Part shown: piece after piece, positions 6,969 to 16,844 of the stretch | Layout of the letters: each line of letters begins with the position of its first letter | How positions within the stretch are numbered: position 1 is the stretch's first letter | Origin: Candidatus Tanganyikabacteria bacterium | GTDB taxonomy: Bacteria; Cyanobacteriota; Sericytochromatia; S15B-MN24; VGJW01 | Direction of reading: 5' to 3' | Assembly: GCA_016867235.1 (NCBI GenBank) | Contig: VGJY01000005.1 | Location: 1-61,110 of the forward strand | DNA length: 61,110 nucleotides | Position numbers and translations under genes: made by a program | The notes under the pieces: generated by a model | What the model was told of the DNA's origin: nothing | What the model saw: only the letters and a program-made list of their open reading frames with translations | Databases searched by the model: none

Positions 6969-8366
6969 TCAAACGGCGCTTGGCCGGCACCCCCCGCTCG
7001 GAACGGGGATGCCGAGCCACCTGGCGAGTGTCGCCAGCCCCTGCGGGTAAAGGCGATCGACCTGGGCGCCCGGGCCGAGCACCCGGGACAGGTAGCGTTT
7101 TCCCGGGAGGATGCTCTCCCGGCTGTGGAAGTCGTAAACGGCCTCGGCGGCCGAGAGGTGCGCGGGCGTGAGCACGAGGCCGGCTTCCGCGGCCTTGGCC
7201 TCCAGGGGGCCGCGGCGCCGGGCGAACGGCGACAGGGTCTCTAGATCCGCGATTGCCGCCAGGATCCGCGGTATTGCCGCCGCGAGGTCCTGCGCGGTGG
7301 TGGACCAGCCGAGCGACATGCGCAGGACGCCAGTCTCCTCGGGAAGGCCGATCGCCGCCATCACGTGCGAGCGTGCGTCGCCCAGGCACGCCGCCGACGA
7401 CGAGGCCTGGACGCCTTGCTGGTCCAGAACCCACACGAGTTCGTCGCCCTGGAAGCCCGGGAAGCCCAGGGTCAGCACGTGCGGCAGGGCCAGGTCGGGC
7501 CGGTCGGCCCAGCAGCCCAGCGGCCGCGCCGCGGGAAAGCGCGCCCGGATGGCGGCCGCGAGCCGATCGCGAAGATCGGCCAGGCGCTTCGCCTCGGCGG
7601 TCCGATCGGCGACCACCGCGGCGGCCGCCGCGCCGAAACCGGCGCACAGGGCGACCGCGACCGTCCCCGGCCTGATCCCGCCTTCCTGGGCGCCGCCCAC
7701 GATCAGCGGGCCGACGTGGATGTCCCCGCGGACCACCAGGGCGCCGACGCCCATCGGCCCGCCCAGCTTGTGGGCCGAGAGCGACAGGAGATCCCAGGGC
7801 ACGGCCGAAAGGTCGCGGGTGCCGGCCGCCTGCACGCCGTCCACGTGGAACAGCGCGCCGCGGCGATGGGCCAGGTCGGCCAGGTCGGCGAGGCGCTGCA
7901 CCGTCCCCAGCTCGTTGTGGCCGCCGATGACCGACAGGAGCTTGGTTTCGGCCGTGAACGCGTCCTCGGCCCGCGCGGGATCCAGCAGGCCACCGGAATC
8001 CGGAGCGAGCAGGGAGACGCTCCAGCCTTCGGTCGCCAGGGCCTCGAAGGCGCGCCGGCTGGCGGAGTGCTCGATGCGGCTGGAGACGGCGTGCCCGCCG
8101 CGGCCGGGCAGGACGCGGGCCAGCCCGCGGATGGCCAGGTTCGAGGCCTCGGTCGCGCCCGACGTGAAGACCACCTGATCGGCCCGGGCGCCCACCAGGG
8201 CCGCCACCTGCTCGCGGGCCGCCCATAGGCGCGCGCGGGCCGCGCGGCCGGCCGAATGCGAACTGCCGGTGTTCTGGGGGCCCAGATCCCAGCACGCCAG
8301 CACCGCGTCCCGCGCCGCGGGTCGGATCGGCGACGTCGCGGCGTGGTCGAGGTAGATCGAGGTCAA
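6969..8366 (-). CDS. NifS/IscS-family cysteine desulfurase-like enzyme with C-terminal extension
   Basis: A 465-residue fold-type I PLP enzyme starting YLDHAATSP. It has the PLP lysine in SAHKLGGPMGVGAL (Lys200) and a catalytic-loop cysteine in SSSAACLGDAR (Cys327), the features needed to take sulfur from cysteine as a persulfide. It is 60-80 residues longer than typical IscS, with a tail ending in Pro/Gly-rich sequence. The start is TTG 8366, in a TTGA overlap with the stop of the DUF169 gene, implying translational coupling. Being last in a HemW-like/DUF169/NifS trio suggests it supplies sulfur for an Fe-S or sulfurated product of that operon (inference). Confidence 0.85.
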   Translation of the reverse strand: MTSIYLDHAATSPIRPAARDAVLACWDLGPQNTGSSHSAGRAARARLWAAREQVAALVGARADQVVFTSGATEASNLAIRGLARVLPGRGGHAVSSRIEHSASRRAFEALATEGWSVSLLAPDSGGLLDPARAEDAFTAETKLLSVIGGHNELGTVQRLADLADLAHRRGALFHVDGVQAAGTRDLSAVPWDLLSLSAHKLGGPMGVGALVVRGDIHVGPLIVGGAQEGGIRPGTVAVALCAGFGAAAAAVVADRTAEAKRLADLRDRLAAAIRARFPAARPLGCWADRPDLALPHVLTLGFPGFQGDELVWVLDQQGVQASSSAACLGDARSHVMAAIGLPEETGVLRMSLGWSTTAQDLAAAIPRILAAIADLETLSPFARRRGPLEAKAAEAGLVLTPAHLSAAEAVYDFHSRESILPGKRYLSRVLGPGAQVDRLYPQGLATLARWLGIPVPSGGCRPSAV

Positions 8367-12278: not shown

Positions 12279-12332
12279 ACTCCCGTATTTTCCCCGAGGT
12301 CAGCGCATCGCCGTATCTTGCACACTCGATCC

Positions 12333-13787
12333 ATGACGATGACAGAGCCCGGCTCCACCCGGCCCGCGAGCAAGTTTGCGGGCCCGCGCAACAAGGTGCC
12401 GGAGTTGCCCGTCGCCGAGCGCATGCGCAGCTTCCGGGAGGTGCAGCTCGGCTACACTCCGGGACTGGCGCAGGCCGAAGCTTCGCGCTGCATCCTTTGT
12501 GCCGACGAACCCAGCTGCGAGGTGTCCGGGTGCCCGCTCCACGGCCGCATTCGCGACTGGCTGAAGCTCACGGCCGAAGGCAAGTTCCTGGAGGCGGCGC
12601 TGCTCTCGCGCACCACGGGCAACATCCCCGGCATCTGCGGGCGCATCTGTCCCCAGGAGCGGCTCTGCGAGGGCGCCTGCGTCGTGGGCGCCCAGAGCGA
12701 TCCGGTCGCCATCGGTGCGATCGAGACCTTCCTGGCCGACTACCTGGCCGACCACCTCGATCGCGGCGGGAAGTTGCCGGCGGATCTCGTGCCGCGCAAG
12801 GCCGCGCCCACCGGCAAGCGCATCGCCGTGGTCGGCGGCGGGCCCGCGGGCATCTCCTGCGCCGAGCAACTGCTCATGCTAGGCCACAAGGTCACAGTCT
12901 TCGACCGCTGGCCGCGCCTGGGCGGCCTGCTGCGCTACGGCATCCCGGCATTCAAGCTTTCCCCCGCGATCGTCGACCGCAAGGAGAAGGAACTGGCGGC
13001 GCTGGGCCTGGAGTTTGCGGGCAACACGGAGGTGGGCACCAGTCCCACGCTCCAGGAACTGCTCGCGCGCGGCTTCGACGCCGTCTTCATCGGCGTGGGC
13101 GCGCCGGTCGATACGAGCCTGAGCGCCCCGGGGGCGGGTCTCGAAGGTATCGTCACGGCGACCAGTTTCCTGGTGCGCGGCAACGTCCCGCGGCAGGACC
13201 TCCCGTCGTCGTGGCGCGATCCGCTGGATGTCAAGGACCAGGAGGTGGTAGTGCTGGGAGGCGGCGACACCGCGATGGACTGCCTGCGGACGGCTCTGCG
13301 CCTGCAGGCCCGGAAGGTCACCTGCGTCTATCGGCGGGACGAGGCCAGCATGCCGGGCGCGAGGCGGGAGCAGCGGATGGCCAGGGAGGAGGGCGTCGAG
13401 TTCGTCTTCCTGGCCTCCCCCCACCGGTTCCACGGGGCCGGCGGGCGGATACTCGCGGTGGAGTGCCAGCGCATGGAACTGGGCGCCCCCGACGCCTCCG
13501 GCCGGAGAGCACCGGTCCCCATCCAGGGCGAGACATTCCGGGTCAACGCCGACACGGTCGTGCTGGCGCTGGGTTACGACGTCGAGGACACCATCCCGTC
13601 CGGCACACCGGGCCTGCAGTACGACAAGCGCTTCCGCATCCAGATCGACCACGGGTCGGGCGCCACGTCGCTGCCCGGGGTCTTCGCCGGCGGCGACGTC
13701 ACGTCCGGAGCGGATCTGCTGGTCAACGCGGTGATGGCCGGCCGCAACGCCGCCGCCGGCATCCACGCATACGTGACGCGCCGGTAG
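12333..13787 (+). CDS. GltD-like NAD(P)-dependent Fe-S flavoprotein oxidoreductase
   Basis: 484 residues. The N-terminal 120 residues carry paired cysteine clusters (CILCADEPSC..GCPLHG and CGRICPQERLCEGAC) that bind 4Fe-4S centres. Then come the FAD motif VVGGGPAGISCAEQL and the NAD(P) motif VVLGGGDTAMDC, and the C-terminal GVFAGGDVTSGADLLVNAV. This is the architecture of the glutamate synthase small subunit and of related electron-transfer partners such as NfnB and dihydropyrimidine dehydrogenase N-terminal regions. No large GltB partner is nearby, so it may serve another catalytic subunit. Two ATGs (12333, 12339) are possible starts. Confidence 0.85.
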   Translation: MTMTEPGSTRPASKFAGPRNKVPELPVAERMRSFREVQLGYTPGLAQAEASRCILCADEPSCEVSGCPLHGRIRDWLKLTAEGKFLEAALLSRTTGNIPGICGRICPQERLCEGACVVGAQSDPVAIGAIETFLADYLADHLDRGGKLPADLVPRKAAPTGKRIAVVGGGPAGISCAEQLLMLGHKVTVFDRWPRLGGLLRYGIPAFKLSPAIVDRKEKELAALGLEFAGNTEVGTSPTLQELLARGFDAVFIGVGAPVDTSLSAPGAGLEGIVTATSFLVRGNVPRQDLPSSWRDPLDVKDQEVVVLGGGDTAMDCLRTALRLQARKVTCVYRRDEASMPGARREQRMAREEGVEFVFLASPHRFHGAGGRILAVECQRMELGAPDASGRRAPVPIQGETFRVNADTVVLALGYDVEDTIPSGTPGLQYDKRFRIQIDHGSGATSLPGVFAGGDVTSGADLLVNAVMAGRNAAAGIHAYVTRR

Positions 13788-13823
13788 ATCTATGCGATGA
13801 AACCTTCTGCATCCGTGGTATAA

Positions 13824-13915
13824 CGGAGGCGGCGGGATTCGAACCCGCGAATGACCCGGTGGGATTCATTACCCGATTCGCAGTCGGGCGCCTTAAACCA
13901 CTCGGCCACGCCTCC
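13824..13915 (-). tRNA. Class II tRNA of serine type with anticodon GCG
   Basis: Read on the minus strand: acceptor stem GGAGGCG/CGCCTCC (7 bp) with discriminator G73; D-arm TGGCCGAGTGGTTTAAGGC typical of tRNA-Ser; anticodon stem CCCGA/TCGGG with loop CTGCGAA; a long variable arm (AATGA/TCATT plus CCC/GGG); T-arm GCGGG-TTCGAAT-CCCGC. CCA is not encoded. The loop puts G34-C35-G36 after U33, so the anticodon is GCG (13879-13881), which would read arginine CGC/CGU. Serine AGC/AGU tRNAs have CTGCTAA here, one base different. Body features (long arm, G73) are serine features. Confidence 0.88.
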
Positions 13916-13988
13916 GTTGCAGCCGGGTGGTTAAGGCTTCATGGGCCGCCCGGCCGCCATGATTAGAACATGTGGTCGTGGCAAGTTG

Positions 13989-16844
<2,856 letters not shown>

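Follow-up and report, generated by a model that had tools for sequence, protein, structure and literature searches.

A serine-type class II tRNA gene with the arginine anticodon GCG lies in the window (the whole stretch of 61,110 nucleotides that was analysed), and a sister gene with the same type of body and the isoleucine anticodon GAU was found on another contig of the source genome. Judging from their sequences, we lean towards the reading that both tRNAs are charged with serine and misread arginine and isoleucine codons under low or conditional expression. The GAU paralogue, a conserved leader hairpin and a complementarity between leader and D-arm were absent from the earlier note on this DNA. 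The two genes, and the anticodon of the window copy, are as follows:

13824 to 13915, minus strand: serine-type class II tRNA with anticodon GCG, which would read CGC/CGU (Arg); ARAGORN and Rfam RF00005
13879 to 13881, minus strand: anticodon G34 C35 G36 in the loop CTGCGAA, with U33, A37 and A38 present; sequence, ARAGORN and Rfam
C256:5906-5996, minus strand: serine-type paralogue with anticodon GAU (Ile), from a DNA search of the genome; body 86% identical to that of the GCG tRNA

The description of the window gene as a serine-type class II tRNA, made earlier from the letters alone, is borne out by ARAGORN and by a full-length match to Rfam RF00005 (63.4 bits, gathering threshold 29). The gene has the body features of tRNA-Ser, namely a long variable arm (23 nt), G73 and a GGAG acceptor with G1-C72, G2-C71 and A3-U70. 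Its main stems are completely paired (7/7, 3/3, 5/5 and 5/5), and it shows neither the broken stems nor the truncation of a pseudogene or fragment. When the anticodon was masked, the closest matches apart from the paralogue were tRNA-Ser (score 102, against 90 for Tyr, 79 for Gln and 69 for Leu). The long variable arm and G73 had been counted as serine marks together with the D-arm. The first two stood, whereas the D-arm (GGCCGAGTGG..AAGGC) was found also in the tRNA-Tyr of relatives and therefore does not by itself prove serine identity; the putative identity rests on G73 and the GGAG acceptor together with variable-arm length. The anticodon GCG was confirmed, with G34 at 13881, C35 at 13880 and G36 at 13879, as was the single base at 13879 that separates it from GCU. 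In neither copy does the anticodon belong to a serine codon, being GCG in the window and GAU in the paralogue. A second tRNA-Arg(gcg) call made by ARAGORN, at 8069-8160, lies inside a coding region without Rfam support and was taken as a false positive.

ArgRS recognises A20, C35 and G/U36, and GAU is the main element recognised by IleRS. The C35 and G36 of the window copy and the GAU of the paralogue would thus suit a switch of identity, in which ArgRS charges the former and IleRS the latter so that both decode correctly. Nevertheless the GCG tRNA lacks the class I body and the A20 of a tRNA-Arg, having its 23-nt variable arm and U at position 20, where the genome's own Arg tRNAs carry A20. 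Moreover the GAU copy has G73 against A73 in tRNA-Ile, variable arms of 22-23 nt are foreign to Arg and Ile tRNAs, and ordinary tRNAs for both amino acids exist in the genome. We give a change of charging enzyme very little probability.

The acceptor, D, anticodon and T stems of the two copies are identical in 20/20 base pairs. All differences between them are three substitutions in the D-loop, six in the variable arm and one in the T-loop, one indel and two anticodon bases; the chance that the ten non-anticodon substitutions all miss the 40 stem positions is 0.0014. Pairing within the variable arm (22-23 nt) is kept through a compensated change. The GAU copy scores 60.3 Rfam bits, the genome's Ser(GCU) 57.3. 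Each odd anticodon is one base from GCU and the two are two steps apart from each other, which suggests a duplicated ancestor of the Ser(GCU) type.

The source genome is a MAG of 6.12 Mb in 514 contigs, rated 100% complete with 2.26% contamination, and the GCG tRNA is on its contig C5. PsaA/PsaB were absent from this genome and from three tested relatives of its class, which is non-photosynthetic, and present in six of seven tested Cyanobacteriota genomes from other classes. A draft MAG with some contamination, and an anticodon one base from GCU, could raise the thought of a sequencing, assembly or binning artefact, and the earlier note had indeed considered a sequencing error. This no longer fits, as the GAU paralogue, on a different contig, is preceded by the same promoter-like element and leader. 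The two loci lie on separate contigs and differ in their anticodons and at 10 more positions; in composition both contigs match the bin (tetranucleotide r of 0.991 and 0.975 with the pool of the genome's other loci), so that an assembly error is unlikely. In addition, the GH57 gene adjoining the GAU copy is 81% identical to that of a same-family genome. An artefact is the least probable of the explanations weighed here, and extremely so.

The likeness of the two loci extends beyond the tRNA itself. Around the window copy the following elements were found:

13962 to 13992, minus strand: promoter-like element, TTGACA (13987-13992), 18 nt and TTCTAAT (13962-13968), conserved with the GAU paralogue
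13919 to 13957, minus strand: leader hairpin with arms 13946-13957 and 13919-13930, common to the GAU paralogue; fold, alignment and inverted repeat
13817 to 13823, minus strand: TTATACC, adjoining the 3' end of the tRNA and unchanged in the GAU paralogue

Both genes are preceded by TTGACA-N18-TTCTAATCATGG and then by a hairpin that ends beside the tRNA. In the window TTGACA and the stop codon of the lyase gene upstream overlap. A consensus promoter scan did not call the promoter-like element, the spacing of which is off consensus. The odd tRNAs have in common a leader hairpin of 45 nt (leader sequence TTGACANNNTGCCNNGNNCNNATGTTCTAATCATGG); its fold has an energy of -21.9 kcal/mol (z -2.28) in the GCG copy, and the GAU copy has a z of -4.47. 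A similar leader is absent from every other tRNA gene of the source genome, most of which have a TATAAT-like box about ten bases ahead of the gene. No further copy was found in the 18 genomes of the class sample, and no Rfam regulatory family matched within 13780-14020 up to an E of 1. The TTATACC that follows both tRNAs is GGTATAA on the other strand, and the window copy forms TGGTATAAC, which is like an extended -10 element; an antisense transcript start at 13817-13823 is possible.

Upstream of the two copies 57/79 bases are identical (BLAST E 1e-7). The flanks beyond the unit reach best identities of 0.38 and 0.40, where shuffled sequences average 0.35 and reach 0.42 at most, and neutral sites therefore look saturated. 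This bears on the proposal that the genes are neutral duplicates in decay, by chance still intact. Such a history would agree with their being lineage-specific and absent from relatives, and with anticodon changes of a single step each. Against it, the flanks of the two copies are no more alike than background, yet conservation persists in the promoter-like element, the leader, the stems and TTATACC; both copies score higher in Rfam than the genome's Ser(GCU), and compensatory changes are seen in the leader and the variable arm. We consider neutral decay improbable. As only one genome has the pair, selection is read from two paralogues only.

An inverted-repeat scan revealed that the leader also contains the D-arm of its own tRNA in inverted form:

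13890 to 13906, minus strand: D-arm stretch GCCGAGTGGTTTAAGGC, complementary to the leader; scores and shuffles as further evidence
13922 to 13937, minus strand: leader stretch GCCTTAACCACCCGGC ('anti-D'), the inverted copy of the D-arm

The anti-D comprises the loop and 3' arm of the leader hairpin, in the same arrangement in the GAU copy. For two of the three positions at which the D-loops differ between the copies, the leaders carry a compensatory change: D-loop T to A (GAGTGG/GAGAGG) and A to T (AAGGC/ATGGC) correspond to leader A to T and T to A. The second matched leader change falls in the hairpin loop and is not explained by the leader hairpin. Leader/D-arm duplexes have energies of -26.4 and -23.3 kcal/mol with their own partners and of -17.4 and -18.2 when crossed, so that own partners are better by 5-9 kcal/mol; in a null model that gave the GCG leader one insertion and three substitutions at random, the real GAU energy was reached with P = 0.005. 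The pairing was spotted after the fact. Among 122 tRNA genes ranked by leader/gene complementarity the odd pair came second and third (shuffle fractions 0.002 and 0.0125), and the gene ahead of them is a spurious tRNA call within GC-rich coding sequence. These values come from local alignment taking in the hairpin loop, which gave a clearer result than whole-leader RNAduplex, the energies of which are less telling against shuffles because long internal loops are allowed. For the anti-D arm alone RNAduplex gave only 0.077 and 0.293 against shuffles. The leader hairpin shows one clean double change between the copies (G-C to U-A), and one C.A mismatch is replaced by A-U. Two clean double changes were counted in the leader/D-arm helix, against an A.C mismatch found in the GAU copy and a C.A mismatch present in both copies.

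The two arrangements suggest mutually exclusive folds, a proposal drawn from two sequences only. When the 3' half of the leader pairs with its 5' half the tRNA would be free to fold, and when it pairs with the tRNA's own D-arm the tRNA would be blocked. The predicted energies of leader hairpin plus cloverleaf (-60.6 and -59.6) lie above those of the forced leader/D-arm fold (-65.8 and -63.6), in a calculation that leaves out tRNA modifications and tertiary contacts. With the 5' part of the leader removed, the blocked fold was the minimum for both copies in one calculation, and a GCG transcript one base longer gave a different minimum of nearly the same energy. The GCG leader is also predicted to pair well with the D-arm of the normal Ser(GCU) (-26.5). 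It is conceivable, if doubtful, that the pair forms a riboregulated missense module, in which bistable leaders with a D-arm mimic and anti-D control tRNA folding and a signal switches serine misincorporation at Arg and Ile codons.

The genome gave 49 Rfam tRNA matches in addition to the ARAGORN list. Ordinary genes are present for Ser (GCU, UGA, GGA and CGA), for Arg (ACG, CCG, UCU and two genes for CCU) and for Ile (GAU), so that neither odd tRNA fills a gap. The idea, raised earlier, of an only-copy Ser(GCU) slot must be given up, as separate Ser(GCU) and Arg(ACG) genes exist. Missing among the 49 matches are tRNA-Asp(GUC) and Gly(GCC), despite the completeness rating, and these were probably lost in contig gaps. 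One further tRNA of the source genome (L057, G000:C35:22235-22308) is class I with a UAA anticodon, a 5-nt variable loop and a Leu-like D-loop. This short UAA tRNA is kept in same-family and same-order genomes (also L091, L092 and L093, 80-91%). Neither a class II Leu(UAA) nor a group I intron was found in the source genome, and UUA is extremely rare in the window set (4/17,150 codons).

SerRS recognises its tRNA by the acceptor, G73 and the long arm and not by the anticodon (PMC7609411, PMC11415595), and on this ground both odd tRNAs should carry serine. The genome has a single SerRS, on a contig other than that of the GCG tRNA. A dedicated SerRS paralogue was rejected, the second weak match reaching only 24.7 bits in a 714-aa frame. 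Once charged with serine, the GCG copy would read the Arg codons CGC/CGU and the GAU copy the Ile codons AUC/AUU on the ribosome. The earlier remark that CGC is very common here holds: in a rough gene set of the window CGC makes up ~40 and AUC ~36 per thousand codons, and CGC/CGU with AUC/AUU together account for ~8% of codons. Unregulated activity of the odd tRNAs should therefore be costly, and they must be weak, rare or conditional. Under the preferred reading both genes would go back to a single Ser-type gene that was duplicated, the tRNA would have been kept as one unit with its promoter and structured leader, and low or conditional expression would place serine at part of the Arg and Ile codons. 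The possibilities listed at the outset for the GCG gene (mistranslation, an inactive tRNA or special regulation) all stand up.

The same codon numbers could favour a role outside translation, since use on the ribosome would affect ~8% of codons. The tRNAs might act as small RNAs, or carry serine for instance for a metabolite pathway or for the aminoacylation of lipids or the cell wall, with an anticodon free to drift from GCU; the anticodons do differ between the copies while the stems are kept, and the leader is distinctive, unlike those of the genome's other tRNAs. However, U33, G34, A37 and A38 are kept in both tRNAs, and G18G19 and the T-loop are intact. A37 and the loops CTGATAA and CTGCGAA are compatible with decoding, CTGATAA being identical to the loop of the genome's own tRNA-Ile. 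Moreover an aminoacyl-transferase gene is absent beside either odd tRNA. A non-translational role is in our view unlikely.

The genes closest to the window copy are:

12318 to 13787, plus strand: GltD-like pyridine nucleotide-disulphide oxidoreductase with Fer4_20 (Pfam), context only
13989 to 15380, minus strand: beta-eliminating lyase of the tryptophanase/tyrosine phenol-lyase family (Pfam PF01212), on the same strand as the GCG tRNA

The stretch 13989-16834 holds two adjoining lyase genes of this family, on the strand of the tRNA. Across both odd loci the neighbours are these lyases, the GltD-like enzyme, a GH57 branching enzyme and a cytosine/purine permease; they suggest no partner enzyme, and no synthetase gene is among the near neighbours. 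Arg tRNAs are known targets of nucleases such as colicin D, and class II bodies with Arg and Ile anticodons could act as decoys that spare the essential tRNAs from anticodon nucleases or other tRNA-targeting toxins. One scaffold with a common leader and two anticodons would suit decoys, whereas the near neighbourhood holds no toxin, phage or mobile genes and the phage and plasmid collections gave no matches. Decoys are quite improbable.

A strict GCG/Ser pattern had no match in the 17 relatives compared within the class. Among 84,980 species it gave 12 matches, a lower bound given how restrictive the pattern is; one was a tRNA call (L079, Bradyrhizobium) and the rest were chance matches. The Bradyrhizobium tRNA (L079:5338-5426), which is Ser-type with a GCG anticodon, has mismatches in its acceptor stem and may be a partial copy at an integration site. 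Among 386 genomes of the phylum, only the source genome has a Ser body with GAU; the 385 others lack it. An origin from phage or plasmid was rejected, as the GCG tRNA had no match in phage and plasmid collections and the leader is absent from viral contigs. In the relatives the orthologous GH57 gene has no tRNA next to it, and GltD-like genes have no odd one; within the genomes sampled, both tRNAs therefore look like acquisitions of this lineage.

Few natural bacterial tRNAs combine a wrong anticodon with an intact body. The present pair would read two of the commonest sense codons with a canonical fold, no special synthetase and an unusual common leader, and would make controlled mistranslation open to direct test on a small scale. 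The literature searched held no earlier report of such tRNAs from Cyanobacteriota.

The nearest known systems are the allo-tRNAs, among which GCG (Arg) and UAU (Ile) are some of the most frequent anticodons (Mukai et al. 2017, via PMC7609411). According to that review these are defined by an 8/4 or 9/3 acceptor/T-stem, come from Clostridia, Proteobacteria and Acidobacteria and not from the phylum Cyanobacteriota, and some put serine at non-Ser codons in E. coli. Like the GCG/GAU pair they have a Ser-type body with a non-Ser anticodon. However, the odd pair is canonical 7/5, with base 8 a U opposite C, and an 8/4 or 9/3 fold was rejected for the GCG tRNA. Moreover the odd pair has a leader complementary to the D-arm, a feature not described in the section of PMC7609411 consulted. 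Several IMG/VR viral contigs (L094, L096, L097, L099 and L106) carry Ser-type class II tRNAs with a GAU anticodon. They share body type and anticodon with the paralogue, although their bodies are not close to the odd pair; some have mismatched acceptor ends and none has leader complementarity. The unusual 5' end ACGGGGGTGGC recurs in L094, L097 and L106, where the uppermost part of the acceptor stem contains mismatches.

The tRNA-ProX of Streptomyces and Kitasatospora, with its ProRSx, gave missense incorporation when tested in E. coli (PMC11415595, PMC10365949). As in the odd pair, one body bears several foreign anticodons alongside normal tRNAs, but the body is Pro with A33 and A34, against Ser with U33 and G34, and the synthetase is dedicated, against the single ordinary SerRS here. 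The tRNA-Ser(CAG) of CUG-clade yeasts is likewise a Ser tRNA with the anticodon of another amino acid, possible since SerRS ignores the anticodon, and in some species it decodes ambiguously beside a normal tRNA (PMC11415595). That system is eukaryotic and concerns one codon en route to reassignment, whereas here two very common codon boxes are concerned, with no sign of reassignment. Since the odd pair has neither the allo-tRNA fold nor the A33/A34 and synthetase of tRNA-ProX, it would be a natural missense tRNA variant, a member of neither family, and by analogy it is best read as a putative functional counterpart, in a 7/5 fold, of both allo-tRNAs and tRNA-ProX.
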